From Paenibacillus sp. (GTDB taxonomy: Bacteria > Bacillota > Bacilli > Paenibacillales > YIM-B00363), in NCBI RefSeq assembly GCF_035645195.1, contig NZ_DASQNA010000039.1, positions 124,001 to 188,000 of the forward strand: a stretch of DNA of 64,000 nt, written 5' to 3'. Of the stretch, positions 4,477 through 47,906 are shown in pieces. Positions within the stretch are counted from its first letter, which is position 1; each line of letters begins with the position of its first letter. The notes under the pieces were generated by a model, which was given only the letters and a program-made list of their open reading frames with translations, made no database searches and was not told the DNA's origin. A program made the position numbers and the translations under genes.

Positions 4477-4500
4477 TCGAAATGTATCGGAGGCGCAGCG

Positions 4501-5187: not shown

Positions 5188-5232
5188 CCGGCTGTTCGCA
5201 GCTTGGGCATAGATTTAGGAGGCTGGAAGTCG

Positions 5233-6243: not shown

Positions 6244-7406
6244 TTACGGCCGATGTCATTCAAGCCCTAGATTCTATTTTTCAGAACCGATCGGCGCCGC
6301 TTGCGCTGCACGAACCCCAGTTTTCGGGGAATGAATGGGCTTACGTGAAGGAATGTTTGGACACAGGGTGGGTGTCCTCCGTAGGCAAATACGTCGATTT
6401 GTTCGAACAGAAGCTGGCCGAGGCGGCGGGCGTGCGTCGAGCCGTCGCTGTCGTGAATGGGACCGCGGCGCTTCATATTTGTTTACAGCTTTGCGGCGTA
6501 GAGCCCGGGGACGAAGTGCTGATTCCGGCCTTGACGTTCGTGGCTACCGCTAATGCTGTCTCTTATTGCGGAGCTGTCCCCCATTTCGTGGACAGCGAGG
6601 CTTCGACGCTCGGCATCGATCCCCGAAAACTAGATAGGTATTTGGCCGACATTGCGGTATTGAAAGAAGGCGTTTGCCATAACAAGCATACCGGTCGGAG
6701 AATCAAGGCTGTCGTCCCGATGCACACATTCGGTCACCCGGTCGACCTGGACTCGCTTATGGACGTTTGCCGTACGTACGGCATCGAGTTGATCGAGGAT
6801 GCAGCCGAATCGCTGGGATCGTTCTATAAGGGCAGACACACCGGCGGGTTCGGAAAGGCGGCGGCGCTCAGCTTTAACGGCAACAAGATCATTACGACCG
6901 GGGGCGGCGGCGCGATTGTAACGAATGACGAACAATTAGCGGATCGAGCCAAACATATAACGACGACCGCGAAGCTGCCGCATCGCTGGGATTTCTTCCA
7001 TGACGAGATCGGATACAATTACCGTCTTCCTAACCTGAACGCCGCGTTAGGCTGTGCTCAGTTAGAGCAAATGCCAGCTTTTCTTGAGAACAAGCGCCGT
7101 CTGGCGGCGAAGTACGAAGAGGCGTTCCGGGACGTGCCGGGGGTTGCCTTTTTTACCGAGCCTTCGTTCGCCCGAAGCAATTACTGGCTGAATGCGCTGC
7201 TGCTGGACGATCAGTTCACCGATCAGAAAGACGACCTGCTGGCAGCGCTCCATCAATCCGGATACTTGTCTCGCCCCGTTTGGACGCTGCTGAACCGCCT
7301 CCCGATGTTTCGAGATTGTCCGGCAATGGATCTTAGCTGCGCGGAGCGGTTGGAACGGTCCATCATCAACTTGCCCAGCAGCGCGAAATTAGGCGAGGGA
7401 TTATGA
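6240..7406 (+). CDS. legC: LegC-like PLP-dependent sugar aminotransferase (DegT/DnrJ/EryC1)
   Basis: 388 residues. It transfers an amino group to C4 of the keto sugar made by LegB. Visible family features are VNGTAALHI (about residue 72), IPALTFVATANA (about 95), IEDAAESLGS with the PLP-ring Asp (about 187) and SFNGNKIITTGGGGA, in which Lys216 is the expected Schiff-base lysine. The ATG at 6240 overlaps the legB stop by 4 bases, giving translational coupling. The gene itself overlaps legG by 4 bases. Length and motif spacing match LegC rather than the shorter PseC enzymes; assignment of the exact nucleotide-sugar substrate is inferred from context. Confidence 0.87.
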   Translation: MITADVIQALDSIFQNRSAPLALHEPQFSGNEWAYVKECLDTGWVSSVGKYVDLFEQKLAEAAGVRRAVAVVNGTAALHICLQLCGVEPGDEVLIPALTFVATANAVSYCGAVPHFVDSEASTLGIDPRKLDRYLADIAVLKEGVCHNKHTGRRIKAVVPMHTFGHPVDLDSLMDVCRTYGIELIEDAAESLGSFYKGRHTGGFGKAAALSFNGNKIITTGGGGAIVTNDEQLADRAKHITTTAKLPHRWDFFHDEIGYNYRLPNLNAALGCAQLEQMPAFLENKRRLAAKYEEAFRDVPGVAFFTEPSFARSNYWLNALLLDDQFTDQKDDLLAALHQSGYLSRPVWTLLNRLPMFRDCPAMDLSCAERLERSIINLPSSAKLGEGL

Positions 7407-8572
7407 AGAGAAGGAAAATTTGTATCATTACGGGTACGCGAGCCGAGTACGGTCTTCTCTTCAAGCTGATGTCTGAAGTGCAATCCGACTCGGATCTTGA
7501 ACTACAGATCATCGCCACGGGCATGCACCTGTCTCCCGAATTCGGACTCACGTATCGGCTCATCGAGCAGGATGGTTTCCGAATCGATGAGAAGGTGGAA
7601 ATGCTCATGTCCAGCGATTCGCCGGTCGGCATCGCCAAGTCGATCGGCCTTGGGACGATTGGATTCGCTGACGCATTCCAACGGTTAGCTCCGGATGTCA
7701 TCGTAATGTTGGGAGACCGGTACGAAATTTTGGCAGCGGCTCAAGCTGCGATGACGGCACGCATTCCGATCGCTCATATCCACGGAGGAGAATTGACCGA
7801 AGGGTTGATCGATGAAGCCATCCGTCATTCCGTGACGAAAATGGCGCACCTTCACTTTACGTCCGCAGAGCCGTATAGAAGGCGTGTGATCCAGTTAGGC
7901 GAACATCCGTCGAGGGTGTATAACGTCGGCGCGCCGGGATTGGACTACATCCGAGACGCGGAATTGATGACGCGGACGGAGCTGGAACGGGAACTAGGCA
8001 TGGCACTGGATGGACGGCTGTTTCTGGTCACGTACCACCCGGTAACGCTGGCGGGCGCGGATCAGACGCATGCGTTAGAGCAGCTGCTTCAGGCGTTGGA
8101 TCATTTCCCGGAGGCGCGAATCGTATTTACGAAGTCCAATTCCGATACCCATGGGCGGGTCATCAACGAACGGCTCGAGCGGTATGCAGCCGATCGTTCC
8201 GAACGGGCGAAGGTATTCACGAATTTGGGACAACGCAGATACCTAAGCGTCCTGAAAGCCGCCGACGCGGTGATCGGCAATTCATCCAGCGGCATTATCG
8301 AGGCCCCGTTCCTCAAGACGCCTACCGTCAACATCGGCGAACGCCAAAGCGGGCGCTTGCGAGCTCCTTCTGTGCTGGATGCAGCTGACGATGCGAACGA
8401 GATCGTTCGTTGCTTACGGACGGCGCTGGACGACGATTTCCGCAGCCGCATCGAGCGGGCGGAATCGATATTCGGAGATGGCACGGCATCCCGAAAGATG
8501 AAGGAAATCTTAAAATCAGCGGAGCTGGAAGGCATCGTATTCAAGCGATTCTACGATCTGGAAGTGAATTGA
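7403..8572 (+). CDS. legG: LegG/NeuC-like hydrolysing NDP-sugar 2-epimerase
   Basis: 389 residues. NeuC/LegG enzymes remove the nucleotide and invert C2, releasing the six-carbon sugar that condenses with phosphoenolpyruvate. Family motifs present are ITGTRAEYGLLFKLM near the N-terminus, VIVMLGDRYEILAAAQAA, IAHIHGGELTEGLIDEAIRH, and in the C-terminal half VIGNSSSGIIEAP and TPTVNIGERQSGRLR. A hydrolysing epimerase of this type is found in legionaminic and sialic acid pathways, whereas pseudaminic synthesis uses PseG; no PseG-like gene is present. Start ATG 7403 overlaps the legC stop by 4 bases. Four bases separate its stop from the formyltransferase-like gene. Confidence 0.88.
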   Translation: MKRRKICIITGTRAEYGLLFKLMSEVQSDSDLELQIIATGMHLSPEFGLTYRLIEQDGFRIDEKVEMLMSSDSPVGIAKSIGLGTIGFADAFQRLAPDVIVMLGDRYEILAAAQAAMTARIPIAHIHGGELTEGLIDEAIRHSVTKMAHLHFTSAEPYRRRVIQLGEHPSRVYNVGAPGLDYIRDAELMTRTELERELGMALDGRLFLVTYHPVTLAGADQTHALEQLLQALDHFPEARIVFTKSNSDTHGRVINERLERYAADRSERAKVFTNLGQRRYLSVLKAADAVIGNSSSGIIEAPFLKTPTVNIGERQSGRLRAPSVLDAADDANEIVRCLRTALDDDFRSRIERAESIFGDGTASRKMKEILKSAELEGIVFKRFYDLEVN

Positions 8573-8576
8573 ATTC

Positions 8577-9476
8577 ATGAGGGTTGTGTTTATCGGCTGC
8601 GTCCAATTTAGCGAAACGACTTTGGAAGTACTTTTACAGCAGGAACGCGCAGAAATCGCAGGTATCGTTACGAAGGCTGCTTCCGCTATTAACGCCGACT
8701 TTCGATCGCTTGAGCCGATCGCAGCAAGAGAGAAGATCCCTTGCTTCTTATATCAACGTTCGGCGGACGTTGAACCGATGATTCGATGGATTCAAGAGCT
8801 CGCGCCGGATGTCGTCTACTGCTTCGGTTGGTCGCACTTGCTGCCTGCCGAGTTGCTTTCGGTTCCCAGGCTTGGAGTGATCGGGTACCATCCTGCCGCG
8901 TTGCCTCAAAATCGCGGGAGACATCCGATCATATGGGCACTAGCGTTAGGGTTGAAGCATACTGCGTCCACGTTCTTTTTCATGGACGAAGGGGCGGACA
9001 CCGGCGATATATTGGATCAGCGTCCAATCGCGATCGAGGATGATGACGACGCGGCAACGCTGTATTCCAAGTTGGAGAACGTCGCTAAGGAGCAAATCGC
9101 GTCATTTACAAGGGCACTTGCGGAAGGAACCTATATGAGAGTTCCTCAGGACCATACAAAAGCGAACTCCTGGCGGAAGCGGGGCAAACAGGATGGCGCC
9201 ATTGATTGGCGGATGTCCTCTGCGTCCGTTCACAACTTGGTGAGAGCATTGACGAGGCCGTACATCGGAGCGCATCTGACAGCTTCCAACGGGGAAGAGG
9301 CGAAAGTTTGGAAAACGGTTCGGGTTGACGAGCTTTACCCTGAAACGAACAATCTCGAGCCCGGCAAAGTACTTCGCGTCAACGGAACTGCTGTTGACAT
9401 CAAGTGCGGGCATGGGGTTATTCGGATTGTGGAGCATGAAATGACCCAACTTCCTTTGGAGGGGACCTATATATGA
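8577..9476 (+). CDS. Formyltransferase-fold protein, likely sugar N-acyl(formyl)transferase
   Basis: 299 residues of the methionyl-tRNA/sugar N-formyltransferase fold. The N-terminal catalytic domain has VIGYHPAALPQNRGRHP (residues 101-117) and FFMDEGADTGDIL (134-146), and a smaller C-terminal domain follows, as in 10-formyl-tetrahydrofolate-dependent enzymes. The usual triad is Asn-x-His and a later Asp. Here His105 and Asp141 are present but the Asn position is Gly103, so chemistry may differ or a neighbouring residue may substitute. This is unlikely to be the housekeeping Fmt: it sits inside a sugar operon, 4 bases after legG and overlapping the deacetylase gene by 4 bases. Inference: it acylates an amine exposed by the adjacent PIG-L enzyme. 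The ribosome site before ATG 8577 is weak, consistent with coupling. Confidence 0.78.
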   Translation: MRVVFIGCVQFSETTLEVLLQQERAEIAGIVTKAASAINADFRSLEPIAAREKIPCFLYQRSADVEPMIRWIQELAPDVVYCFGWSHLLPAELLSVPRLGVIGYHPAALPQNRGRHPIIWALALGLKHTASTFFFMDEGADTGDILDQRPIAIEDDDDAATLYSKLENVAKEQIASFTRALAEGTYMRVPQDHTKANSWRKRGKQDGAIDWRMSSASVHNLVRALTRPYIGAHLTASNGEEAKVWKTVRVDELYPETNNLEPGKVLRVNGTAVDIKCGHGVIRIVEHEMTQLPLEGTYI

Positions 9477-10147
9477 GCGTTGTTTTAGTCGTGGCGCCCC
9501 ACCCGGACGACGAAACGTTAGGTTGCGGCGGCACCCTGCTCCGACATAAGGAGCAAGGGGACGAGGTGCATTGGCTGATCGTTACCTCCATGTCGGAACA
9601 ATACGGATTCACGAAGGAAAGAATGGAAGAACGAGAGGCGGAAATTCAACGGACGAAAGACGCGTACGGGTTTGACGGCGTAACGCAGCTACAATTTCCG
9701 ACGATGCGGCTGGACGATATTCCGATGGCCGATCTGGTCGCCCGCATGAGTGCATCGTTCCAAGAAATCCGACCGAACACGGTGTACGTGCCGCACAGGG
9801 GAGACGTCCACACAGATCATGCGGCTGTGTTCGATGCGACGATATCTTGTACGAAATGGTTTCGGTACCCGTTCGTTTCGAAAATAGCGGTTTACGAAAC
9901 ATTATCCGAGACGGACTTCGGCCTAAACCCGGATAATAACGGCTTTCGTCCGAATTGGTTCGTAGACATCGCGCCTTGGATCGATCGCAAAATCGAGATC
10001 ATGAACATTTTTCGCAGCGAAATGGGAGCTTTCCCGTTCCCGAGGAGCGAAGAAGCGATCCGTTCGTTGGCGAAAGTGCGCGGAGCGGCCTCCGGCTTCG
10101 AAGCCGCCGAGGCGTTTATGGTGCTAAAGGAGACGTGGGGCCGTTGA
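9473..10147 (+). CDS. PIG-L/LmbE-family zinc de-N-acetylase
   Basis: 224 residues. PIG-L family enzymes remove N-acetyl groups from GlcNAc-type substrates using Zn2+. The metal motif APHPDDE is at residues 8-14 (His10, Asp12, Asp13), and the second motif HTDH at 113-116. It starts 4 bases inside the formyltransferase-like gene and overlaps legI by 4 bases, so it is certainly cotranslated with the pathway. Such an enzyme is not part of the standard legionaminic route; the parsimonious reading is removal of an acetyl group from a pathway intermediate or a final acetamido group so that another acyl group can be placed. Substrate unknown. Confidence 0.85.
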   Translation: MSVVLVVAPHPDDETLGCGGTLLRHKEQGDEVHWLIVTSMSEQYGFTKERMEEREAEIQRTKDAYGFDGVTQLQFPTMRLDDIPMADLVARMSASFQEIRPNTVYVPHRGDVHTDHAAVFDATISCTKWFRYPFVSKIAVYETLSETDFGLNPDNNGFRPNWFVDIAPWIDRKIEIMNIFRSEMGAFPFPRSEEAIRSLAKVRGAASGFEAAEAFMVLKETWGR

Positions 10148-11217
10148 ATCGGACGTATATTATCGCGGAAGCGGGAGTCAATCATAACGGGTCCGTAGAG
10201 CTTGCCGTCGAACTGATCGACGCAGCCGTTGAAGCGGGAGCGGACGCGGTTAAATTTCAAACGTTCAAGCCGGAACTCCTTGTCAGCGCATTTGCCGGGA
10301 AAGCGGATTATCAGAAGAAGCTTACGGATTCTGAGGAGTCGCAGTTGGACATGCTCCGCAAGCTGCAGTTGCCGGAAGAAAGTTACCCGAAGCTGCTGGA
10401 ACGTTGTCGGGCGAGGGGGATTCACTTCCTATCCACGCCGTTCGATTTGGATAGCTTGTCTCTATTAACCGAAACGTACGATATACCGACGATTAAGCTG
10501 CCTTCAGGAGAGATTACCAATCCTCTTCTTTTATATCGTACCGCGAGAACCGGCAAACCGATCATTTTGTCCACGGGCATGAGCACGCTCGGCGAAATCG
10601 AAACGGCGCTTTCGGTAATCGCGTTCGGTTATGTTGCCGCGGACGAGAAGCCTTCGCGCGATAAAATTCTCCGGGCATATGCCAGCGAGGCGGGGCAGCG
10701 CGCGCTGCGCGACAACGTAACTTTGCTCCATTGCACGACGGAATACCCCGCGCCGCTGGATGAAGTGAATCTGAATGTCATGGATACGTTAAAGCGGGCG
10801 TTCAACCTCAAGGTCGGATACTCCGATCATACGCAGGGTATCGCCATTCCGGTCGCCGCGGCGGCCAAAGGGGCGGCGGTCATCGAAAAGCACTTCACGT
10901 TGGATCGCGGCATGCCGGGGCCTGATCATCAAGCTTCGCTCGAACCGATGGAACTGAAGCAAATGGTTTCGGCCATTCGAGATGTGGAGAAGGCGCTCGG
11001 AAACCCGATCAAACATCCGACGGCTTCGGAAATCAACAATAAATTGGTCGTGCGGAAAAGCTTGGTCGCCATACGCGCGATTCGCAAGGGCGAGCCGTTC
11101 TCCGAAGAGAATCTCGCGATCAAGCGGCCCGGAACCGGCAGATCCCCCATGGAGTATTGGGAGATGCTTGGTCAGCCTGCCGATAGAGACTACGAACGGG
11201 ACGAGCCTGTGCAATGA
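10144..11217 (+). CDS. legI: Legionaminic/sialic acid synthase (NeuB/LegI)
   Basis: 357 residues. It condenses phosphoenolpyruvate with the six-carbon 2,4-diamino sugar released by LegG to give the nine-carbon acid. Diagnostic stretches are IAEAGVNHNGS (residues 7-17), AVKFQTF, FLSTPFD, KLPSGEITN, STGMSTLGEIE, LHCTTEYPAP, VGYSDHTQG and IEKHFTLDR. The C-terminal ~60 residues form the SAF antifreeze-like domain (VVRKSLVAIRAIRKGEPFSE). TTG 10144 is chosen as start: it is the first start codon before the conserved N-terminus, lies 11 bases after AAAGGAG, and gives the same 4-base overlap as the other junctions. A longer in-frame reading from 9955 merely runs through the deacetylase gene. Confidence 0.9.
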   Translation: MNRTYIIAEAGVNHNGSVELAVELIDAAVEAGADAVKFQTFKPELLVSAFAGKADYQKKLTDSEESQLDMLRKLQLPEESYPKLLERCRARGIHFLSTPFDLDSLSLLTETYDIPTIKLPSGEITNPLLLYRTARTGKPIILSTGMSTLGEIETALSVIAFGYVAADEKPSRDKILRAYASEAGQRALRDNVTLLHCTTEYPAPLDEVNLNVMDTLKRAFNLKVGYSDHTQGIAIPVAAAAKGAAVIEKHFTLDRGMPGPDHQASLEPMELKQMVSAIRDVEKALGNPIKHPTASEINNKLVVRKSLVAIRAIRKGEPFSEENLAIKRPGTGRSPMEYWEMLGQPADRDYERDEPVQ

Positions 11218-11840
11218 CCGACAAGCCGATTATTTTGCTTGGCGGAGGCGGGCATGCGAAGGTGCTGCTCGATGTGTTGAAGCGTTCCGGCCGAACGGTG
11301 ATCGGATTTACGGATCCCGAACGAACCGAGCTTACGGGAGCTCCTTATTTAGGTGACGACAAGGCGGTGCTCCAATTTGATTCCAATGCGGTCCTGCTGG
11401 TTAACGGGCTGGGCAGTACTGTATCGACGGAGCGTAGAGCGTCGTTATATCGCAAGCTGCACGATGCCGGTTACCGGTTCGCCGCGGCAGTGCACCCGTC
11501 CGCAGTCATCGCCGAAGATGTCGTCCTTGGCGACGGAGTTCAAATTATGGCGGGGGCTGTCATTCAGCCGGGTTGTCGGTTGGGGGCCAACGTGATCGTA
11601 AATACTCGAGCCTCGGTTGACCATGACTGTACGGTCGGGAACCATGTACACATTGCGCCGGGGGCTATTCTCTCGGGCGGCATCCATATCGGCGATGCAG
11701 TACATGTAGGCACGGGGGCTGTCATAATTCAAAACATTCGGATCGGAGCCGGCAGTTTGGTCGGAGCCGGGGCAGTGGTCGTCAAAGATGTGTCGGAAAG
11801 AACGAAGGTGCTGGGAGTACCCGCGAGGGAGGTCAACTGA
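11214..11840 (+). CDS. NeuD/PglD-like acyltransferase with left-handed beta-helix
   Basis: 208 residues. The N-terminal Rossmann-like half carries GGGGHAKVLLDVL (residues 9-21); the C-terminal half has hexapeptide repeats of the left-handed beta-helix type (VVLGDGVQIMAGAVIQPG, IGDAVHVGTGAVIIQN, GAGSLVGAGAVVVKDV) and ends with VLGVPAREV. Such enzymes (PglD, NeuD, LegH-like) transfer acetyl from acetyl-CoA to a sugar amine or hydroxyl. In this operon it could be the N-acetyltransferase acting on the LegC product, or an O-acetyltransferase of the finished sugar; the sequence does not decide. Start ATG 11214 overlaps the legI stop by 4 bases, and the next gene begins on the base after its stop. 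Confidence 0.85.
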   Translation: MTDKPIILLGGGGHAKVLLDVLKRSGRTVIGFTDPERTELTGAPYLGDDKAVLQFDSNAVLLVNGLGSTVSTERRASLYRKLHDAGYRFAAAVHPSAVIAEDVVLGDGVQIMAGAVIQPGCRLGANVIVNTRASVDHDCTVGNHVHIAPGAILSGGIHIGDAVHVGTGAVIIQNIRIGAGSLVGAGAVVVKDVSERTKVLGVPAREVN

Positions 11841-12887
11841 ATGAATTCATGGGAGAAAGCCGCGGTATATCCGACTACCACGATTCTTGAAACGATCGAA
11901 GCGATCGACAAAAGCACGATGCAAATCGCGATCGTCATCGACGAAAATAAGAAACTATTAGGAACCGTAACCGACGGCGATATTCGGAGAGGCATTCTGC
12001 GCAACGTTCCTTTGCACGACCCGGTCGAACGCGTCATGAATGCTTCGCCGAAATACGCGAGCATTCACGAATCGCCGGGGACGATAACTTCGCTATTGAA
12101 GAATGCGAGGCTGAAGCACTTGCCGATCGTCGATGAAGAAATGCGCGTCATCGACGTGAAGAAGCTTGAAGATATACTGAAATTGGAGAAAAGAGATAAT
12201 CCGGTCGTGTTAATGGCCGGCGGGCTAGGAACGAGGCTTCGTCCGTTGACCGAGCATTCGCCGAAGCCGCTGCTGAAGGTCGGGGAAAAACCGATTCTTC
12301 AGACGATTTTAGAGAGCTTCATTGACCATAGATTCTCAAATTTCTATATTTCCGTGAATTACAAAGCCGAGATGATTAAAGATTACTTTGGGGACGGTTC
12401 GGAGTGGGGGGTAAGCATCCGCTATATCGACGAGACGCAGCGGATGGGTACGGCCGGGGCGTTATCGTTGCTGCCCGAACCGCCGATGGAGCCGTTGATC
12501 GTGATGAACGGCGATTTATTGACGAAAGTAAACTTCGAGAATCTACTGGATTTTCATAACGAGCACCATTCCTTTGCGACGATGTGCGTGCGGGAATATA
12601 ACTATCAAGTACCGTATGGGATCGTTAGATCCAATGGGCATGCGCTTGAAGCGATCGAGGAAAAGCCGGTGCATCAGTATTTCATTAATGCAGGGATCTA
12701 TGTCTTGGCGCCCAGTGCGCTGGAAATGATACCGAGGAACCAGTTCTATGACATGCCGGATCTTTTTAAAGCGTTAATCGGACAAAACAAAACGACCAGC
12801 GTATTTCCGATTCGGGAATACTGGATGGATATTGGAAGAATGAGCGACTTCGAGCGCGCGAATATGGAATATACGCATTATTTCTAA
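11841..12887 (+). CDS. ptmE: PtmE-like CBS-domain sugar-1-phosphate nucleotidyltransferase
   Basis: 348 residues. The N-terminal pair of CBS motifs (about 8-117, with VTDGDIRRG near 43-51) is fused to a GlmU/RfbA-type nucleotidyltransferase domain: MAGGLGTRLRPL (125-136), SPKPLLKVGEKPIL, IVMNGDLLT, and a C-terminal EEKPVHQYFINAGIYV and EYWMDIGR. In Campylobacter jejuni the protein with this architecture, PtmE, makes GDP-glucosamine so that legionaminic acid is built on GDP-linked sugars rather than UDP. This suggests the same GDP route here (family knowledge plus context). CBS pairs usually bind adenosine nucleotides, which may give regulation. It is the last gene of the contiguous sugar run. 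AT-richer than the flagellar genes that follow. Confidence 0.83.
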   Translation: MNSWEKAAVYPTTTILETIEAIDKSTMQIAIVIDENKKLLGTVTDGDIRRGILRNVPLHDPVERVMNASPKYASIHESPGTITSLLKNARLKHLPIVDEEMRVIDVKKLEDILKLEKRDNPVVLMAGGLGTRLRPLTEHSPKPLLKVGEKPILQTILESFIDHRFSNFYISVNYKAEMIKDYFGDGSEWGVSIRYIDETQRMGTAGALSLLPEPPMEPLIVMNGDLLTKVNFENLLDFHNEHHSFATMCVREYNYQVPYGIVRSNGHALEAIEEKPVHQYFINAGIYVLAPSALEMIPRNQFYDMPDLFKALIGQNKTTSVFPIREYWMDIGRMSDFERANMEYTHYF

Positions 12888-12927
12888 GTGCTCATAACAA
12901 TATTTGTATATTTCCGGAATATCTTTT

Positions 12928-12955
12928 TAAATGCTATTAAACCTGCGCCCGATAT
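12928..12955 (+). promoter_or_regulatory. Sigma-D type promoter for flaG-fliDST
   Basis: TAAA at 12928-12931, a 16-base spacer, then CCCGATAT at 12948-12955. This is close to the sigma-D/sigma-28 consensus TAAA-N15-GCCGATAT. It lies about 50 bases before the FlaG start codon, in the only sizeable gap between ptmE and flaG. Confidence 0.75.
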
Positions 12956-13004
12956 TGCCGAAATACTAGAATATAGATTCTTATGCGCGCGGAGGGATAT
13001 CGTA

Positions 13005-13400
13005 ATGAGCTTTGATTTTCAAGTTGGGGGCGCGGCTCCCGTATCGAAAATTGATCCTATATTGCCGGCGACTTCCGTCAAAGGGAGCGAACACACCCAT
13101 ACGGAAAAAATCAAGCATATCTACTCCACGAAGGAACTCAAGCGCGCCGAGATGCAAGGTGAAGAGGTTTCCGTAAGCGACGAACAATTGATAAAAGCCA
13201 TCGAAAAAGCGATCAAAGCGATCCAAGGCAACAATACGTCCCTGGAGTTCGCAGTTCATAAAGAAACCAAACAAATTATGGTCAAAGTGCTCAACAAAGA
13301 GACGGGCGAGCTTATTCGTGAAGTGCCGCCGGAAAAAAACTTGGACTTCATCGCAAATATTTGGAAGATAGCCGGACTCTTCGTCGACGAGAAGCGATAA
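13005..13400 (+). CDS. flaG: Flagellar protein FlaG
   Basis: 131 residues. FlaG is a small flagellar protein usually encoded just before fliD and linked to filament length and cap assembly; its mechanism is not well defined. The conserved C-terminal part is present: LEFAVHKETKQIMVKVLNKE, then TGELIREVPPEK and a terminal helix. The N-terminus is variable, as usual. ATG 13005 is chosen because GGAGGG (12991-12996) is 8 bases upstream; an in-frame extension back to 12888 would add 39 unrelated residues and read through the sigma-D promoter. First gene of the flaG-fliD-fliS-fliT unit. Confidence 0.9.
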   Translation: MSFDFQVGGAAPVSKIDPILPATSVKGSEHTHTEKIKHIYSTKELKRAEMQGEEVSVSDEQLIKAIEKAIKAIQGNNTSLEFAVHKETKQIMVKVLNKETGELIREVPPEKNLDFIANIWKIAGLFVDEKR

Positions 13401-13426
13401 ATTCACGTAAGGTGTGATTTTCCGAT

Positions 13427-15307
13427 ATGGTAACGAGAATTAACGGCTTTTCCTCCGGTTTGGATATAGACCAGCTCGTTAGACAGCTGATGACGGCGCA
13501 GCGGCTGCCGATGGACAAGCTCGTGCAGAAAAAGCAAACGCTGGAATGGCAGCGCGAGGACTTCCGTACGCTGAACAGCCAGATCATGGACTTCCGGAAC
13601 GCCGCGTTCGACATGCGCTTGTCGTCGAGCTACTTAACCAGGAAGGCGTCTTCATCGAACGAGAACGCCGTCAGCGCTACCGCCGCGCCGGGAACGGTCG
13701 CAGGAAATTACACCGTGAAGGTCAACGCGCTTGCGAAAGCGGCCAGCATTTCGTCGGAAGGCCCTGTCGGGGCGACGTCGACGGCGGATACGCTGTCGTC
13801 CATCGGCATGGATTCGCCGGGGCCGACGGAGGTCACGATAACGGGCAAAACGGGATCGGTGTCGCTCGTGTTTAAGACGACGGACAAAATTTCGGACGTC
13901 ATCAGCCGAATCAACGCCGTGTCGACGACGACGGGCGTCGTGGCGAGCTACGATACGACGCTCCAGCGATTCTTTTTCAAATCGTCGACGACCGGAGCGG
14001 ATGCGACGGTGGATATTCGTTCGCCGGACTCCGATTTTCTCAGCGACGTTCTCCGATTGACACCGGAAAGAACCGGAAACGGCGGCTTGGTGACGGGATC
14101 CGTCGCGTTCGTTTCCGGCACGCCGGCGTCTCCGAGCACAACGAAGAAGATCAATGATTCTCTGACATCCGAGCAGACGCTTCGGATCACTTACAAAACA
14201 AAGACATACAACTTCAATATTACCAGCAGCACGTCCGTGGGGACGCTGATCAATCGAATCAACGCTTCGGGGTTAGGCAAAGAGGGCGTCTCCGCATACT
14301 TGGATAAAGACGGTCATTTCACGTTATTTAATCCGGATTCCAATGAGCAATTGGATATCCAAGATGCCACCAGCGACGGCGTCGACATTTTATCTTCGCT
14401 CGGGTTGACGGCGGGATCCACGGCCGGGACGCCGATCACTTATCACGAATACGACGGGGAAGGTCAGAATGCGTCGGTCGAGTTTAACGGCTTGACGCCT
14501 GCCGTCGAGTTCAGCTCGAATACGTTCACGATCAACGGCATCACGTTCACGGCCAAGGAGACGACGACGTCGGATGTGAATATCGCGGTCACGCAAGATG
14601 TCGATGCGGTTTTCGATAAAATTAAATCGTTCGTCGAGAAATATAATTCGATGTTAGACGCGATGAATAAGGAATTGAGCGAAGAGCGATTTCGCGACTT
14701 CCAGCCGCTGACCGACGAACAGCGGGAAGCGATGAACGAGGACGATATTAAAAAATGGGAAGAGAAGGCGCGCAGCGGCTTGCTGCGAAACGATAGCATT
14801 CTATCGGGCGCCGTCAATTCGTTCCGATACGGCATGGTGCGATCGGTCACGGGACTGCCGGCCGGTCATTTGCAGCAGATGTCGGAAATCGGCATCTCGA
14901 CCGGGGCGTACGCTTACAATGAAAAAGGGAAGCTGTATATCGACGAAGAGTTGTTGCGCGAGGCGATTTCCGACCGTCCGGAAGAAGTACTGGCGTTGTT
15001 CACCGCAGACGACAACGACAGCACCAGCTCCGAAGGCGACGGGTTGGCTCGACGTCTGCACAGCATCGCGGACAGCACGATCGATATGATTCTTCAACGG
15101 GCAGGAACGTCGACGAGCTCGTTGGATAACTACACGATCGGCCGAGAGCTGTACAATGTTAACACCAGAATTACTTCCTGGGAGCGCAGGCTCGTCGACA
15201 TGGAAAATCGCTATTACAAACAGTTTACGGCAATGGAGCAGGCGCTGGCCAAGCTTCAAGCCCAAAGCACGAATCTCATGTCCCAGTTCGGCGGTACAGG
15301 CGGCTAA
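13427..15307 (+). CDS. fliD: Flagellar filament cap protein FliD (HAP2)
   Basis: 626 residues. FliD forms the cap at the filament tip that guides flagellin insertion. The N-terminal HAP2 signature RINGFSSGLDIDQLVRQLM (residues 4-22) and a long helical stretch (KLVQKKQTLEWQREDFRTLN) are followed by variable domains. The C-terminal D0/D1 helices contain FDKIKSFVEKYNSMLDAMN, the ERRLVDMENRYYKQFTAMEQ-type helix and the end LQAQSTNLMSQF. It is somewhat longer than B. subtilis FliD (about 500), the extra residues falling in the variable middle. Twenty-six bases separate it from flaG, with AAGGTG as ribosome site. Confidence 0.95.
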   Translation: MVTRINGFSSGLDIDQLVRQLMTAQRLPMDKLVQKKQTLEWQREDFRTLNSQIMDFRNAAFDMRLSSSYLTRKASSSNENAVSATAAPGTVAGNYTVKVNALAKAASISSEGPVGATSTADTLSSIGMDSPGPTEVTITGKTGSVSLVFKTTDKISDVISRINAVSTTTGVVASYDTTLQRFFFKSSTTGADATVDIRSPDSDFLSDVLRLTPERTGNGGLVTGSVAFVSGTPASPSTTKKINDSLTSEQTLRITYKTKTYNFNITSSTSVGTLINRINASGLGKEGVSAYLDKDGHFTLFNPDSNEQLDIQDATSDGVDILSSLGLTAGSTAGTPITYHEYDGEGQNASVEFNGLTPAVEFSSNTFTINGITFTAKETTTSDVNIAVTQDVDAVFDKIKSFVEKYNSMLDAMNKELSEERFRDFQPLTDEQREAMNEDDIKKWEEKARSGLLRNDSILSGAVNSFRYGMVRSVTGLPAGHLQQMSEIGISTGAYAYNEKGKLYIDEELLREAISDRPEEVLALFTADDNDSTSSEGDGLARRLHSIADSTIDMILQRAGTSTSSLDNYTIGRELYNVNTRITSWERRLVDMENRYYKQFTAMEQALAKLQAQSTNLMSQFGGTGG

Positions 15308-40118: not shown

Positions 40119-40154
40119 GGGAATCAAATCTAATTACGTGCGATGGCAAAGCAT

Positions 40155-40193
40155 GCCTCGACGGCCGTGGATCCGGCCTGTCGGGGCTTTTTT
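40155..40193 (+). terminator. Strong terminator between minJ and the 40224 gene
   Basis: GCCTCGACGGCCG (40155-40167) pairs with CCGGCCTGTCGGGGC (40173-40187) with one bulged A and one G-U pair; loop TGGAT; six T follow. It serves minJ, and with the promoter at 40090 it would also end a leader RNA of about 70 bases. Confidence 0.9.
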
Positions 40194-40223
40194 GCGTTCG
40201 GACGAAAGGAGCGATGGTTAGGG

Positions 40224-40694
40224 ATGGCTGTGTCGAAGCGGAAGGCGTACGGGGGTAAAGTCGAATCGTTCGTAAAGAAATGCGAGCGCTCGCTGGCGGC
40301 TGCCGGCTGGGCGCACGGTTTGCCAGCGGCGGCCGTGGCGTTCTTGTCGCTGATCTGGGCGCCGTTGTCGAAGGGGGCGTTCCGTCATTTGCGCGCGGGG
40401 TGCCCATTGGACGGGGCGGAGGAGCTTCGCTTCGCATGCTACTTCACCTATTTCCGATGGAACCGCCGGCCGATCGTGTTCGAAATTTTGAGTCATCGGG
40501 TAGGTGTCGAGCTGACGGAGGCGGAGTACGCGCTGTTCTTGGAGCGCAGTAGGGCGCTGGAGGCGCAGGGGTTCCGGGTCGTGAGGATCACCGACGTGGA
40601 GCTCGCATACGCCCGCAAACATGTGTACGAGCGCGCGGCGTACGCTATGAGCCGGTCTGGGTGGGGCGACGAGGGCTGGGGTACAGCGATTTGA
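40224..40694 (+). CDS. Unknown protein, weakly nuclease-like C-terminal half
   Basis: 156 residues, basic N-terminus, no signal peptide. I recognise no family with confidence. The central part (IVFEIL, about residue 91) followed by LEAQGFRVVRITDVEL (about 113-128) loosely recalls the PD-(D/E)xK layout of DUF559/Vsr-type proteins (an acidic strand, then a helix, then GYxVLRI-like strand), but a full catalytic set cannot be seen. ATG 40224 has AAAGGAG 12 bases upstream. It is preceded by its own promoter-terminator leader and followed by a separate promoter for the SLH gene. Confidence 0.65.
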   Translation: MAVSKRKAYGGKVESFVKKCERSLAAAGWAHGLPAAAVAFLSLIWAPLSKGAFRHLRAGCPLDGAEELRFACYFTYFRWNRRPIVFEILSHRVGVELTEAEYALFLERSRALEAQGFRVVRITDVELAYARKHVYERAAYAMSRSGWGDEGWGTAI

Positions 40695-40718: not shown

Positions 40719-40747
40719 TTGTCAGTCGTGAGCACTTCCGGTATAAT
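40719..40747 (+). promoter_or_regulatory. Promoter of the SLH-PKD operon
   Basis: TTGTCA (40719-40724), a 17-base spacer, perfect TATAAT (40742-40747). Transcription would start near 40754, about 110 bases before the SLH start codon. Confidence 0.8.
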
Positions 40748-40778: not shown

Positions 40779-40823
40779 GGACCGTGCTGACAGGAGAGGA
40801 CTCCTTGTTTGCGGTCTTTTTTT
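40779..40823 (+). terminator. Terminator-like leader hairpin before the SLH gene
   Basis: GGACCG (40779-40784) pairs with CGGTC/T (40812-40817), with an inner hairpin ACAGGAG/CTCCTTGT around AGGA, then seven T. Because it sits between a good promoter and the gene, it may act as an attenuator or end a ~70-base small RNA. No known riboswitch class was recognised. Confidence 0.75.
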
Positions 40824-40863: not shown

Positions 40864-42084
40864 ATGATGAGAAGACGATGGATATCGGCTGTCGTTGCGT
40901 TTGCGTTAGCTTTGGGGGCGCCGGTTCCGAGTGCGAAAGCTGCGGGCGGATTTACGGATATCGACAACCACTGGGCGAGGGACGTTATCACTGGAGCTGT
41001 CACGGCGGGGTATGTGAAAGGGTATCCGGACGGGACGTTCAAGCCGGACGCGAACGTAACGAGGGCGGAGTTTCTTGCCATCGTTACCCGGGCTTCGAAA
41101 TTGCCTGCCGCCGGTGTTGAGGAGCCTTTCGTCGATGTCGATGCAAGGCATTGGGCGGTAGATGCGATCGGGCGGGGGATCGGCATGGGCTTCATCTCGC
41201 CGTCCGCATTCGGCAGCCGCTTCGAGCCGGATAAAGCGCTGACGCGGGCGGAAATGGTGACATGGCTGGTCAACGGACTGGTGAAGGCCGACCCTTCGTT
41301 CGGTGACGCGCTGAAGGATACGCAGAACACGATTCTGCCATTTACGGAATACTTCCCCGGAAAGTTCAACAAACCGGACATTCCGTACATCGCCGTGGCG
41401 CGGGGTGTCGGCTTGGTTGGCGGCTTCCCGGACGGTTCGTTCGGACCGGATCGTACGACGACGCGAGCGGAGGTCGTCACGCTGTTGACCCGTTACTTGG
41501 CGGCGGAGGGAACGAAGGCTGAGGATTACAAAGCGCTGAATGAAATGCGCGAGGTCGGGCTGTATGGTACGAATGTGAAGACGATCGGGAACGCGGAGTG
41601 GTATCCGGGTAAGGGTATTCGGCGTCCATTTTATGAGGCGTTTAATGTCGAACTGAAGCCGGACCGGCCGATCGGGACGATCATCCTGCGGAAGTATATT
41701 CTGGTCGATAAAGAGCTGACTAGCGTGTACAAGGATGTGTTTTTGTCAAAGGAGCAGCAGGAGGAACTTACTACGGAATCGTTGGAACGCTTTATGCGCT
41801 TTGTAGAGGTCACCTTAATGCCTTCGAAGGATCTGGATACGCAATCTTTTCTATATGGTTTACCGGCAGTTGCAGGTACCACGTTTCAAGTTCGTGGTGA
41901 ACTAAATCAGCCTAAAAAATACGGATTTCACGCTATGACCTCAGATCAAGCGTTGACGATGTTAAAGAAAGGGCAAACGAGTACGTTTTGGAATCTATAT
42001 GGTGTGATGAAAAGTGGAATCGTGGTAATTAATACGCAAGACGGGAAAATGATTAGAATGATAGTCCGGGGTGTTGAGAATTGA
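40864..42084 (+). CDS. Three-SLH-domain surface protein
   Basis: 406 residues. A signal peptide (about 1-25, RRRWISAVVAFALALGAPVPS) is followed by three SLH repeats with the conserved TRAE motif: FTDIDNHWARDVI...TRAEF (about 28-75), FVDVDARHWAVDAI...TRAEM (about 92-140), and PYIAVARGVGLVGGFPDGSF...TRAEV (about 170-215). SLH triplets bind pyruvylated secondary cell-wall polymer and anchor proteins to the wall. The remaining ~190 residues are an unrecognised domain. ATG 40864 follows AGGGGGAG. The stop overlaps the start of the 1941-residue protein by 4 bases, so the two are made together. From about 41700 the DNA becomes noticeably more AT-rich. Confidence 0.9.
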   Translation: MMRRRWISAVVAFALALGAPVPSAKAAGGFTDIDNHWARDVITGAVTAGYVKGYPDGTFKPDANVTRAEFLAIVTRASKLPAAGVEEPFVDVDARHWAVDAIGRGIGMGFISPSAFGSRFEPDKALTRAEMVTWLVNGLVKADPSFGDALKDTQNTILPFTEYFPGKFNKPDIPYIAVARGVGLVGGFPDGSFGPDRTTTRAEVVTLLTRYLAAEGTKAEDYKALNEMREVGLYGTNVKTIGNAEWYPGKGIRRPFYEAFNVELKPDRPIGTIILRKYILVDKELTSVYKDVFLSKEQQEELTTESLERFMRFVEVTLMPSKDLDTQSFLYGLPAVAGTTFQVRGELNQPKKYGFHAMTSDQALTMLKKGQTSTFWNLYGVMKSGIVVINTQDGKMIRMIVRGVEN

Positions 42085-45000
42085 CGCGACGGAGGCGTGT
42101 GGTTGGCCTGCTTCTCCTCTCCTCGATGATCACGGAATTGGTGGCGCCGTGGGGATCTACGAAGGCTGGCGTTTATGACCAAAATGACGTGCAAGCCCCG
42201 TATTTGTTACCCGCAGCTAACGCCAATGGCGAACAAAAGCGAATTATTGAGGTGTATAACTCTAGGGAAGCGAAACCGAAAGTAGAAATGTACCAACTTA
42301 ATGATCGGAGCTTTAAAGCCGATTTTGCTGAAAAACCTAGCGAATATATTGCTTTTGGGGGATACGACGGAACGAAGGACTATCCCGAGGTATTCTCTAT
42401 CTCAAACTGGAAACTGGACATGACTCCATATAAGCCTATAACGCCGTGGAGCGATAAGACTGGGAAAGAATATTACGAAGCTGATCTTAATACGTTCGGG
42501 GTGGCCGACGCAGACTATACGCCATTCGGCAGCGTCTATATAGGCAGCAATGCGGTGCCGGACAATAAGCATCTCACGATCAACATCGAAACACAGGGGA
42601 ATAAATCTACAAGTAATGAACCGTTTAGTTCGGGCAATAGGATTACGGTGGAGCCTCACAGCGTTAAGCGCCTCGTGACATATGACATCGACATGATGGT
42701 GTACTGGAAAGGGCAAGTCATCACGACCAAGACATTGAACGCCTCGACGACAAAAACATCCCTTACGATCGGGGAAACGTCCGCATCGACGGCTACGGTT
42801 ACGACGACCGGCTACCAAGCGAGCGGCGGACCGGTGGATGTGAACAACAATACGGCAACCACGACGTGGAGCAGCAGCAACAGCGCCGTTGCGGAAGTGA
42901 ACTCGGCCAGCGGGCGGATCACGGCCAAAAGCGTGGGCTCGGCGACCATTACAGTGCGTTGGACAAGGGAGGATGAATACGGCCTAAAATGGGATGTTTA
43001 TCGTTCCTTCACTGTTACTGTCGGAAGCGGCACCGGTGGTGGTGGAGGCGAACCCCCGCCCCCAACAGGAAGCATCACAGGAGATTTCACGGTGAGTCCA
43101 AATACAATTGCCTATCGCGATTCATTTTCCGTCAAGCCAACAACGATCACCGATAATGGTTGTACCTATCTCAAGCATCATTACAAGTTTGAACGCGATG
43201 GGGCAAGCGTAGAGAAGCGCGATTACGTTGGAAAGACCTTAACAACGACCTATTCGTACAGCAATTACCCTAGCACCATTGGGGTAGGCACGGTTTACGT
43301 ATACATGAAGTTCGTCGGTACGTGCGGGGAAAGCGAGTGGATCGGACCCAAAACCTTGTCAGTCACGGGCCCGGCATCCAACAATCCACCGAGCTTTCAA
43401 ATCGGGTTTGTGAAGCCAAGTGACCCTACGGTGCCCGTATTTAAAGTTATCGAGGGAACAACGCTAAATCTCGTATACATTGTGGATCCAAGAGTGCCAA
43501 CGCCGCGGGATCCGGATGGGGACCCTCTTGAGTTTAGGGGCTTCGATTTTTCGGAGAGCAGCGCTTGGGCAAAGACGATCCCTCAAAATTATTCTCAGTC
43601 CTCCGAGGGTTATTACGGAATCGTGATGAATGGGCGAGGCTTTCATAACAATATCAAGGCGACGATGTGCGACCCGTTCGGCGCTTGCACGACCCGTACA
43701 ACGAGCATTGAAGTCGTGCCCCCGAACCCAATTCCGATCATCAATGGTCCGGATGAAGTCGTCGAGGGGCGGCCGTTGCCGAGTGAATTTTCCTCTTCTG
43801 CCAGTTACAGTCCGGTAGGGAGACCGATCGACCATTCGCGGGATGAGTGGACGAATAAGAAAAGCGTCTACACAACGCCGGGAACGGAGATCATTTCGCT
43901 GCACGTGTATGACTCTATCGGACTGAAATCGGAGCAGCCGGCCACAAAAACGTTGACGGTAAAACCGGACAGGCCGCCTGTCAACGTGCTCGAGTACAAT
44001 TCGCCGGGCGTCCGCAATGCAACGACGACGTTCAAAGATGCATCCTACTCGCCCGACGGCGATACCATTGTAAGGAGGGAAATAACGTACCGTTACGACC
44101 GGGACAACGATGGAGATTTCAACGAAGAGACAGTTTACATAGCTTCGGTGTCCAACAACACGTTTTCCATCACGCCAAACAGGGTGGGGAAATATCAGAT
44201 TCGTCTTTACACAGAAGAGAATTGGGGCAGAAACACGACCACGTACCATGTGTTCGAAGTGGTGAACGATGGTCCTTTGGTGAGCTTTGAAATCTCGTCC
44301 CAAGTGACCGAGCCGGTCCCCGTTCCGACGGTACCGATCGCCAATAGTACGTTTGTGAACTCCTCGGACTGGACGAACTCCACCATCTCGGAATCTAATA
44401 TCCCGAAGAGCTGGAAGGTGAATACTAGAACGGGCGGCTTGAGCCATATTCCGTCAATTTATAAGTACAATGCGGACATTACCGGTCCGGCGCCGGGGGC
44501 AACGGTAAACTCTCTACAATGGGAAACTGAGGACTATGTTATTTATCTCGGCGAAGGGTACTACAGGACTCCAAGCAGCGGAGTGATCGGTGCTAATCCG
44601 TATAAAGCTTTGGTTTACACTCGTAACGGCTCTGTGTACCGAACATACCGTAGAGCGGATTACTTATCGGGCGGAATGCCATTCGAAGAATCGACTGTAT
44701 GGAAAAAGCCATACCCGGTGGATAACGAAGGTTACGGTCAGTATGTCAGGTTTAGCGCGGGCAGCACAAACGCAGGGTGGCTAGATGCAGGCGCAACTTC
44801 GGATATCTCTAAACCGACAACGGGGGCATACCAAGTATTTAATTGGTATAACCACGAATCGCCTTACTACAGTTACGGTGCATCTTGGCTGGACAATAAG
44901 GTGTGGCTCGGTATGCCTGACGCTTACTTGAAATATCATTCGTTGCAAACAACCGGATTTTATACGGTATTCGACCCGGAAAACGGCCAACAATCGGAGT

Positions 45001-47906
45001 ATGCGAACCCAACCGGAGTGCATCCGAATAGCGCGCCCCGATTTTGGCCGCGGTCGGACGGAAGATACTTTTTCTACAATGGAAAAGTGTACAGCATCCC
45101 GGGAATGCAGCTCATTCAATCGCTCCCCACCGGAGGGGCTATCGGGCGATGGGGAAATTACCTGCTAGTGAATAATTACGGAAATCTGGAAGGTTACTAC
45201 TGGAATAGCAACGGCACGTTGTCCCTGCTCTGGATTATTAACAATCATAACGGCAACCTGAACTACTACTCTTATAATGCGGTAGCGAACTTAGATAACA
45301 GCGGCTATCTATACGTTGCGGATCGGGCGGACCGTAACCTGAAACGGCTCAAAATCACGAACGGGAGTTTGGAGACGGTCGGCAACCTATCGAAGGTTTG
45401 GAACACGGGATACGCGACACCCGTTCTAGCTGGTGACGGAGCTGTCATTGTGCGTGCAGAGTGGAATTATAGCCCTCGGAAGGGGCTGGTCTACGACGCA
45501 AGCAGACCGGAACTTCAAGGTGCGCTAGGATCGCAGCAGCAGCTTCTTGGGAAAGTTCATCTTCAAAATGCTGCTTATAACTTCAGGATCCAATTTAATA
45601 AGCTAACGAACGATCGGCTGTATTCTGGTTTTTCGTTCCATGCGCAAGACCACGCCAACATGTACCGGGTGGAATTGAATGGGGAACGTATCAGGTTGGT
45701 TAGGGTGCAGGGCGGAAACCGAGCCGTGTTATCCTCGGCGAATTACAGCATCGCCGAAGGAGCGCTGACAAACGTAAAGGTTCAAGTATTGGATAGAACC
45801 ATCAAGGTTTACGTGAATGGTGTGCCAGTAATTGAAAGGTACGACACGACGTTCATATCCGGGGTCTTCGGACCGTATTCCGAAATTCCGAAGACGGAGT
45901 TCTACAACGTTTCCTACACCGATTTAACGGCGCTAAGCACGGTTTCCAACGTCCAAAATGTAGCGATTGTCGGACAGTCTGTTCAGTATTCCACAACGGT
46001 AACCGATACGGAAAACGACCCGCTCGTTCCCGCCCTAACCCAGTGGACATACTTTAAGATTCAGGAGAAATTTCTTGACGCAGGGGACGGAAGGTCCGGC
46101 TGGTCGGGGCTGCACGGCCAAACCTACGTTTCGCCGCAGCTCGTGTTCGACAAGGTCGGCGTTTTCGAGGTGAGGTATACCGGAGTGGACGATCCGCATC
46201 CGGACTACCGTTACCCGTCTAGCCAATTCGGCGCCTACCGTAAAAATTCAAATACATCGACTCGGCAGGTGATTGTGCATCGAATCCCGACAGTGGATTA
46301 CGACCTCTACTTAAGGCCGGACGGAACGGTTGGATGGACGGATCGAAGTCACGACAAAGACCGATGGTTAAACGACTGGACATACTCTACGGAACCAACA
46401 GGCATTAATTACGCTGCAACGAAAGGGATCCTTGAGAAAAAGTTTTATTATGTCACGCCGTCGGGACAAACGGTGAATGAAAAGCTCGTCGTGCCCAAGG
46501 AGGGAGGGACGTTCACTGTCGGAATGGCGGTCCGGGATGAGTACGGGGCTTGGAGTCCGTTCCTAGAGCGTAGCATCACGGTACCGGGACCCGCAACGCC
46601 GAACGACCCGCCCGTCGCAGGCTTCACGGTCAGCACGTTCGGGACGCATCGAGGAGCTCCGGTAGGGATCAATTCCACGGCATGGGACAGGGAAGATGGG
46701 CCGAGGGAGAACCTAGCTCACGAATACTACATCGGAAACACGGCAGGCGGTCAAGAGACGTTGCAAAGCAACTCACGCACTTATTGGGAAAAAACATTCA
46801 ATTCTCTTGGTACGTTTAGGATTCGGCAGGTCGTAACGGACTCGTTGGGACAACTATCGCAAGCCTCGACGAACGTGACGATTTATAACCGACTGCCGAT
46901 CGTAAGCATCTCGTCGCCGGCCAGTCAAGATCCGAACAATCCGAATGTGATCGATGTGACCCGTCCGACGTTTACTTGGACGTATACGGACCCTGACGGA
47001 GACCCCCAAGCCAAGTACCAGATTCGGATTTACCGTTACGGAGGCATACTCGAATACGACTCCGGGATAAGGACGGGAACGGCAGTATCGTGGTCATCCG
47101 TTTCTGATCTCCCGGAACATACCAACTTGTACGTGCAGATCAGATCAAGTGACGGGGAAGAGAGTGCCGGCTTCGGCTGGAGCGATTGGAGCACGCCGCG
47201 CTACTTCCGCATCGTCACGAATAAGCCGCCGGTGGCCGATTTCGAGTGGACGCCAAACCCGGCTTGGGAGGGCGACACCGTGATGTTGATCGATCGGTCG
47301 ACGGATTCCGACAATCAGCCGCTCTCTTACTCGTGGAGCATCGCCGGACCTAACGGTTATACGAGAAGTTTCAGTTCGAAGGCAGCCTCGATTCAAGGAA
47401 CCGACACGCGAAACCGAACGGGTGCGTACACCGTGACTTTAACCGTAACAGATCCCTATGGTGCGGCCGATAGCGTCTCGAGAACGATCATGGTAGGAGA
47501 CTTGGACATTGTGGGACAAGTTTCGCATACCCCCGAATGGGAGGCGTACCGGCAAGCTTGGAACGAGAAATTTCCGAACCAGGCTAGGGCGCCGTCCGAT
47601 TTTTGGGCGGGCGAGGCATTCGTGCTGGGGGCGGACGTAACGAATACGGCCGGAAGCGGGACGAAGCCGACCCGCGTGACAGCGGAACTGGTGCAAACGG
47701 GGGATAAAAGGGATCTGATCTCTGGGGATCGGGTTCGGTACTCGGGAACGATGGCGGAGGAAAGACATGCAGACACGTTGAATGACGGTTCGTATACGAT
47801 GCGGTTTACGGTCGAATGGAACAACGGGCATGTAGAAATCGACGATGTGCCGTTCAACGTGCGAGGTCATATGCTTGATGTGATCGTGCAGCAGCAACGG
47901 CTGTGA
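42081..47906 (+). CDS. Giant secreted multi-domain PKD/Ig-like protein
   Basis: 1941 residues, start TTG 42081 overlapping the SLH stop. A signal peptide (1 to about 30, VVGLLLLSSMITELVA) precedes an unknown N-terminal domain (about 50-215), a BIG2-like Ig domain (about 216-315), a GGGGGEPPPP linker, and several Ig/PKD-like modules (about 333-750; DPDGDPLEF, DASYSPDGD). The middle (about 753-1126) has repeated Tyr/Asn/Gly blades reminiscent of a beta-propeller. It is followed by a concanavalin-like sandwich (about 1136-1278; YRVELNGERIRLVRVQGG), fibronectin/Ig-like modules, a clear PKD domain (about 1711-1806; PPVADFEWTPNP, TVTLTVTDPYG) and an unknown C-terminal domain. No catalytic motif or own SLH was seen; anchoring may depend on the SLH partner. 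Function unknown; adhesion or carbohydrate binding is a guess. Confidence 0.85.
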   Translation: MTRRRRVVGLLLLSSMITELVAPWGSTKAGVYDQNDVQAPYLLPAANANGEQKRIIEVYNSREAKPKVEMYQLNDRSFKADFAEKPSEYIAFGGYDGTKDYPEVFSISNWKLDMTPYKPITPWSDKTGKEYYEADLNTFGVADADYTPFGSVYIGSNAVPDNKHLTINIETQGNKSTSNEPFSSGNRITVEPHSVKRLVTYDIDMMVYWKGQVITTKTLNASTTKTSLTIGETSASTATVTTTGYQASGGPVDVNNNTATTTWSSSNSAVAEVNSASGRITAKSVGSATITVRWTREDEYGLKWDVYRSFTVTVGSGTGGGGGEPPPPTGSITGDFTVSPNTIAYRDSFSVKPTTITDNGCTYLKHHYKFERDGASVEKRDYVGKTLTTTYSYSNYPSTIGVGTVYVYMKFVGTCGESEWIGPKTLSVTGPASNNPPSFQIGFVKPSDPTVPVFKVIEGTTLNLVYIVDPRVPTPRDPDGDPLEFRGFDFSESSAWAKTIPQNYSQSSEGYYGIVMNGRGFHNNIKATMCDPFGACTTRTTSIEVVPPNPIPIINGPDEVVEGRPLPSEFSSSASYSPVGRPIDHSRDEWTNKKSVYTTPGTEIISLHVYDSIGLKSEQPATKTLTVKPDRPPVNVLEYNSPGVRNATTTFKDASYSPDGDTIVRREITYRYDRDNDGDFNEETVYIASVSNNTFSITPNRVGKYQIRLYTEENWGRNTTTYHVFEVVNDGPLVSFEISSQVTEPVPVPTVPIANSTFVNSSDWTNSTISESNIPKSWKVNTRTGGLSHIPSIYKYNADITGPAPGATVNSLQWETEDYVIYLGEGYYRTPSSGVIGANPYKALVYTRNGSVYRTYRRADYLSGGMPFEESTVWKKPYPVDNEGYGQYVRFSAGSTNAGWLDAGATSDISKPTTGAYQVFNWYNHESPYYSYGASWLDNKVWLGMPDAYLKYHSLQTTGFYTVFDPENGQQSEYANPTGVHPNSAPRFWPRSDGRYFFYNGKVYSIPGMQLIQSLPTGGAIGRWGNYLLVNNYGNLEGYYWNSNGTLSLLWIINNHNGNLNYYSYNAVANLDNSGYLYVADRADRNLKRLKITNGSLETVGNLSKVWNTGYATPVLAGDGAVIVRAEWNYSPRKGLVYDASRPELQGALGSQQQLLGKVHLQNAAYNFRIQFNKLTNDRLYSGFSFHAQDHANMYRVELNGERIRLVRVQGGNRAVLSSANYSIAEGALTNVKVQVLDRTIKVYVNGVPVIERYDTTFISGVFGPYSEIPKTEFYNVSYTDLTALSTVSNVQNVAIVGQSVQYSTTVTDTENDPLVPALTQWTYFKIQEKFLDAGDGRSGWSGLHGQTYVSPQLVFDKVGVFEVRYTGVDDPHPDYRYPSSQFGAYRKNSNTSTRQVIVHRIPTVDYDLYLRPDGTVGWTDRSHDKDRWLNDWTYSTEPTGINYAATKGILEKKFYYVTPSGQTVNEKLVVPKEGGTFTVGMAVRDEYGAWSPFLERSITVPGPATPNDPPVAGFTVSTFGTHRGAPVGINSTAWDREDGPRENLAHEYYIGNTAGGQETLQSNSRTYWEKTFNSLGTFRIRQVVTDSLGQLSQASTNVTIYNRLPIVSISSPASQDPNNPNVIDVTRPTFTWTYTDPDGDPQAKYQIRIYRYGGILEYDSGIRTGTAVSWSSVSDLPEHTNLYVQIRSSDGEESAGFGWSDWSTPRYFRIVTNKPPVADFEWTPNPAWEGDTVMLIDRSTDSDNQPLSYSWSIAGPNGYTRSFSSKAASIQGTDTRNRTGAYTVTLTVTDPYGAADSVSRTIMVGDLDIVGQVSHTPEWEAYRQAWNEKFPNQARAPSDFWAGEAFVLGADVTNTAGSGTKPTRVTAELVQTGDKRDLISGDRVRYSGTMAEERHADTLNDGSYTMRFTVEWNNGHVEIDDVPFNVRGHMLDVIVQQQRL

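Follow-up and report, generated by a model that had tools for sequence, protein, structure and literature searches.

An SLH-repeat protein and a giant Ig/PKD protein of Paenibacillus form a matched pair, probably the outer part of a divergent Tad-type machine

The window, i.e., the whole 64,000-nucleotide stretch of Paenibacillus sp. DNA that was analysed, contains two overlapping genes, the products of which probably make up, as two matched parts, a surface fibre or adhesin that is tethered to the wall and acts as the outer component of a divergent monoderm Tad-type (type IVc) machine. Both the pairing of these proteins and their association with the machine are well supported by sequence comparison. 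The co-occurrence and linkage with the divergent Tad-type machine is the key context missed by the preliminary description of this locus. No description of the pair was found in literature searches, the reach of which did not extend to most subscription journals.

In the proposed scheme both proteins would be exported by Sec, and the first one, carrying SLH repeats, would bind the pyruvylated secondary wall polymer. The C-terminal domain of this partner could dock the giant, otherwise anchorless, by its N-terminal domain. The Ig/PKD array of the giant would form a rod projecting a CBM66-like carbohydrate-binding sandwich and a conserved C-terminal domain, so that the pair could act as the wall-side adhesin or tether of a Tad-type machine encoded on another contig.

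The SLH partner gene (40864–42084, + strand) starts with ATG and encodes 406 residues comprising a signal peptide, three SLH repeats and a C-terminal domain. The giant gene (42081–47906, + strand) starts with TTG and consists of 1941 codons with no internal stop; its product is a secreted protein. The 4-nt overlap reported earlier is confirmed by these open reading frames: the sequence TTGA (42081–42084, +) holds both the stop of the partner gene and the TTG start of the giant gene, and this arrangement makes translational coupling likely. Short gaps or overlaps between the two genes are the rule in relatives. The pair is flanked by housekeeping genes: ftsEX and the genes of an M23 peptidase, an S41 protease and a PDZ protein lie upstream, and a glycosyltransferase gene, uvrB and uvrA downstream; flank gene maps of GC-rich loci are approximate owing to the ORF caller. 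Immediately 5' of the pair lies an ORF of 183 aa (40143–40694) without a Pfam match, and two congeners (L044 and L046) have related ORFs at the corresponding position. Elsewhere in the window (37–15307), between flagellin (37–1839) and fliD (13427–15307), a gene cluster encodes MptE/Maf-like and PseB/PseC-like proteins, UDP-GlcNAc 2-epimerase, formyltransferase, PIG-L, NeuB and a CBS-nucleotidyltransferase; it is probably a flagellin nonulosonic-acid glycosylation island.

Expression of both genes from a single promoter with an attenuator-like leader had been suggested, and one good promoter-like site followed by a hairpin and a T-run was indeed found. The sigma-70-type site TTGTCA-17-TATAAT (40719–40747, +), which is a consensus match only (11 of 12 positions), has the top score of the region scanned, and the −35 and −10 regions are similar in the same two congeners. 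The hairpin with internal loops and the subsequent T-run (about 40779–40823, +) were recognized by folding (−26.1 kcal/mol, z −2.1) and by conservation. In both congeners the extended stem is kept, the internal loops are invariant, and the alignment, read by eye, contains one A-U to G-C double change in the stem. Since the hairpin is preserved there, a functional attenuator is plausible. The leader had no Rfam match even at a permissive threshold, and assignment to a known RNA element was rejected. It occurs as a single copy in the source genome, so no regulon is indicated.

The three SLH repeats of the partner (residues 28–217; 40945–41514, +) each contain a TRAE motif (VTRAE, LTRAE and TTRAE). 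They match PF00395 in three stretches (3.9e-30), and in the AlphaFold model of the protein (pLDDT 84) they form an SLH trimer comparable with those of SpaA and Sap (Z about 17–20), i.e., three repeats of the SLH fold. This agrees with the earlier placement of an anchor in the first protein and none in the giant: no SLH or other anchor domain is present among the Pfam matches of the latter. The source genome carries one PF04230 gene of the CsaB-type pyruvyltransferase family, a family of wall-polymer pyruvylation. With SpaA of Paenibacillus alvei and Sap of Bacillus anthracis this system has in common the SLH fold in three repeats and a gene of the pyruvyltransferase family. In contrast to SpaA and Sap, anchor and large surface protein are here separate polypeptides, and in a third or more of relatives a Cu_amine_oxidN1 protein takes the place of the SLH protein. 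The C-terminal domain of the partner (about residues 222–406, about 185 residues; 41527–42081, +), the putative docking domain for the N-terminus of the giant, is without a clear known fold; its structural matches (Z ≤4) show a weak likeness to small Gram-positive extracytoplasmic proteins.

The giant begins with an ordinary signal peptide, behind which lies a soluble domain, and NCBIfam contains no model for this protein. Its N-terminal domain of type 1 (about residues 30–220; 42168–42740, +) is common to DUF5704 proteins also found behind an SLH partner. Then follow a Big_2 Ig-like domain (residues 226–292; 42756–42956, +) and a conserved Ig/PKD-like stretch starting with ITGDF (residues 331–750; 43071–44330, +). 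A further series of Ig-like domains (residues 1294–1805; 45960–47495, +) includes Ig_Rha78A_N at residues 1619–1711 and a terminal PKD_4 at residues 1714–1802. Big_2, Ig_Rha78A_N and PKD_4 score above the Pfam cut-offs, in accordance with the signal peptide and Ig/PKD modules noted earlier. The protein ends with a domain that has no Pfam name (residues 1806–1941; 47496–47903, +), described before as an unknown C-terminal domain, yet conserved and well predicted (pLDDT about 80–92). Its short basic tail (47886–47903) is conserved: VQQQRL (VxQQRL) is present here and typically VHRxQ in relatives.

The model of the C-terminal half is good for residues about 1153–1500 and 1600–1935 and poor for residues 792–1150 (44454–45530, +). 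This variable region had been considered a possible propeller; that proposal is not confirmed, as the region is modelled at pLDDT about 30 and gives just a negligible FG-GAP match (E 0.43). A beta-propeller or PilY1-like head is accordingly unsupported here, a propeller being neither shown nor excluded. In four loci (L054, L059, L072 and L073) two separate genes encode the giant, the break falling close to where this unmodelled central region starts, with products of, for example, 866 + 1235 aa or 753 + 1317 aa.

The lectin-like sandwich proposed earlier is real. It is a CBM66/LamG-like beta-sandwich recognized by profile and model (residues about 1165–1280; 45573–45920, +), and its nearest relative is the CBM66 of levanase (4azz, E 1.5e-13), a homology seen at the level of the family profile; the single sequence alone found no match. 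Unlike the levanase module, that of the giant is embedded in a non-enzymatic protein. Carbohydrate binding by this module is putative, and the commonness of CBM66-like folds is counted against the main reading. The best Foldseek matches of the C-terminal half are Ig arrays in large adhesins, namely GhpA of Aureispira, SiiE and an ice-binding adhesin; this is a generic likeness with high rmsd and with no sequence-family relation shown. Ig-like modules also occur in CmoA of Paenibacillus sp. NAIST15-1 (PMC5072692), another large extracellular protein of this genus, which differs in having 1,064 aa, vWFA and IPT/TIG domains, a location in a flagellar operon and no SLH partner. The giant has no vWFA or TIG match in Pfam, and its locus adjoins minJ-like and uvrB genes; CmoA as a known homologue is ruled out by domains, size and locus.

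Of 60 genomes of the order, 47 contain a relative of the giant (E 1e-3), and in most of the 40 relative loci examined an SLH protein is encoded immediately 5' of the giant. An all-species contig scan returned 80 best loci, all from Paenibacillus, Cohnella, Thermobacillus, Gordonibacillus or other Paenibacillaceae. The start of the giant could be judged in 76 of them, and in 73 of these named genomes the partner ends −62 to +105 nt from it; these loci overlap partly with the first 40, and the sample is not fully independent. Thus, the gene-neighbourhood survey called for earlier revealed conserved linkage. By phmmer similarity to typed examples, 42 of the 73 paired loci have an SLH-type and 31 a Cu_amine_oxidN1-type partner, so the constant feature is a dedicated partner and not SLH itself. 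The role of SLH as the anchor, as initially described, therefore holds in part: the partner is nearly always a dedicated neighbour, but it need not be of the SLH type.

The variable modules of the system are the N-terminal domain of the giant (about 300–450 residues before the ITGDF-type stretch) and the C-terminal domain of the partner. Similarities in these two modules are correlated (r 0.66), and the correlation persists after control for the C-terminus of the giant (partial Mantel r 0.64, reached by 0 of 2000 permutations). Profile–profile comparison arranges the partner types into {T1,T4}, {T2,T3} and {T5}. The types of the giant N-terminus form the same two groups, and T5 is also related to T4 there. 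According to the type profiles, every classified locus agrees at the level of type superfamilies. Typing of the named loci gave 56 exact matches and three T2/T3 crossings inside one group; 14 loci had no confident partner type. A giant N-terminus of type T5 is accompanied by a Cu_amine_oxidN1 partner in 31 of 33 cases, and the other types by an SLH partner in 40 of 40. The exceptions, counted against the main reading, are two Thermobacillus loci (L177 and L180), in which a giant with a T5-type N-terminus has an SLH-type partner whose C-terminus is unclassified.

The pair of the window belongs to type T1. SLH partners of this type also precede DUF5704 proteins that share with the giant just its N-terminal domain, and for this reason that domain is the one that would dock on the C-terminal domain of the partner. 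Five loci with a window-type SLH partner before DUF5704 proteins of 1122–1228 aa (L075, L076, L077, L078 and L083) belong to genomes without the machine. The partner C-terminus and the giant N-terminus are adjacent in DNA, so joint recombination could yield their match without contact. Conserved pairing together with matched types makes the argument that conserved linkage is lacking inapplicable. Of the two-component surface structure proposed in the preliminary description, the conserved two-component unit stands by adjacency and matched types; the suggested S-layer accessory function has no specific support. SLH proteins are common in the source genome (43 matching places), which would suit a reading in which ordinary, unrelated surface proteins became adjacent by chance, although conserved adjacency and matched types in more than 70 loci contradict it and leave it very improbable.

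In the source genome the machine is encoded on one contig (C27) and the pair on another (C39); this absence of linkage is counted against the main reading. The machine comprises RcpC/CpaB, TadZ-like, TadA, TadB and TadC proteins, three small hydrophobic ORFs and two TadE/F-like genes, i.e., the RcpC/CpaB, TadZ-like, TadA-type ATPase, TadB/TadC-like, pilin-like and TadE/F-like set of the Tad (type IVc) pilus. The ATPase is of the TadA/CpaF type (PF00437, 1.4e-25); among NCBIfam models it matches that of the TadA family best, and since the score is far below the cut-off of this model, the ATPase is divergent. TadB (PF00482, 1.6e-6) and RcpC/CpaB (PF16976, 9.6e-9) exceed their cut-offs, and TadC, without a Pfam match, was assigned by position and family conservation only. 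At the position of the Flp pilin, two or three tandem hydrophobic ORFs of 45–70 aa are found, in which no canonical prepilin motif was seen, so filament formation by the machine is uncertain. At locus L095 (11152–11683), the Tad-type operon contains three such tandem ORFs of 45–59 aa, and ORFs of a similar kind occur in relatives.

The ATPase subfamily was separated from other Tad and T2SS ATPases by score in 60 relatives (at least about 200 versus at most 183 bits). The C-terminal half of the giant and this ATPase were both present in 36 of these genomes and both absent from 23; none had the giant only, and the single genome with the ATPase only is 81 percent complete. Presence agrees, therefore, in 59 of 60 relatives (Fisher 1e-15, kinship ignored). 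Among 246 genomes of the order, counted from the lists of giants and ATPases and again with kinship ignored, 150 have both, 7 the giant only, 1 the ATPase only and 88 neither. Four of the seven giant-only genomes (G033, G058, G085 and G240) represent weak PKD-type matches. The other three (G119, G139 and G225) are good genomes with the giant and without the ATPase at the threshold used, which is counted against the main reading. Within two families (f6/g14 and f10) the giant and the ATPase are present or absent in concert. The two genes lie on one strand at most 15 kb apart in at least 29 genomes (hand count). In about ten loci the pair lies immediately 3' of TadA/B/C-like and small pilin-like genes. 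The ATPase (PF00437) comes first there, then genes of two membrane proteins, several small hydrophobic ORFs, one or two genes of the TadE/F-like kind, the partner and the giant. Side-by-side genes and the near-constant presence of the machine suggest that the pair is probably its outer, sticky part.

The pair could also be an independent wall-tethered adhesin or fibre, co-occurring with Tad genes through a shared lifestyle or regulation (surface attachment) and not through shared structure. Both proteins have ordinary Sec signals, so their export needs no machine; the pair and the machine are unlinked in many genomes; and in the source genome, G001 and G004 the neighbours of the pair are unrelated (minJ-like, the 183-aa ORF, glycosyltransferase and uvrB). 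The T1 partner/N-terminus cassettes that carry DUF5704 cargo in machine-free genomes are consistent with such independence as well. It is nevertheless rather unlikely, given that the co-occurrence of the giant and the ATPase is close to one-to-one, that operon-like direct adjacency is found in many independent lineages and that several genomes contain two or three giants along with two or three such ATPases.

The Tad tips known so far consist of minor pilins of the TadE/F/G type, which carry a hydrophobic helix at the N-terminus (PMC12075869). The giant differs from them: it has a Sec signal and a wall-anchored partner and lacks a pilin helix. With a signal peptide, a soluble domain and no pilin match, its assignment to the TadG minor pilins is ruled out. 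In Pseudomonas, the periplasmic conduit is formed by RcpC, which connects to the RcpA secretin (PMC12307814). The machine under study has an RcpC-like protein in a monoderm cell without an outer membrane, and the pair, wall-linked and strictly tied to the machine, could instead of an adhesin be a collar through which the Tad-type filament leaves the wall or S-layer, in place of the outer-membrane secretin. However, the giant consists of an elongated Ig array that includes a CBM66-like module and has no ring-forming signature, and other monoderm Tad loci have been described without such a pair (PMC3244431), making a collar improbable. That survey of Gram-positive type IV pili reported tad loci of several kinds, with no mention of Paenibacillus, S-layer, PKD or adhesins. 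Deletion of two pilus loci in Paenibacillus sp. NAIST15-1 left motility unaffected (PMC5072692).

With the pair as the probable wall-side part of the machine, an anonymous gene pair becomes a testable component of a widespread, undescribed pilus-type system, the pair and machine occurring together in 150 of the 246 genomes sampled from the order (about 60 percent). More tentatively, the monoderm Paenibacillales could possess a distinct Tad-type machine, the outer part of which would be, in place of a minor-pilin tip, a separately exported Ig-array giant adhesin, held at the wall by an interchangeable SLH or Cu_amine_oxidN1 anchor with type-specific docking, i.e., a filament system with a wall-side receptor. 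The anchor/cargo docking module, with its matched types and its occurrence with DUF5704 cargo, could serve protein display on Paenibacillus surfaces. The finding bears on how the filament machine of a single-membrane, S-layered cell meets the wall.
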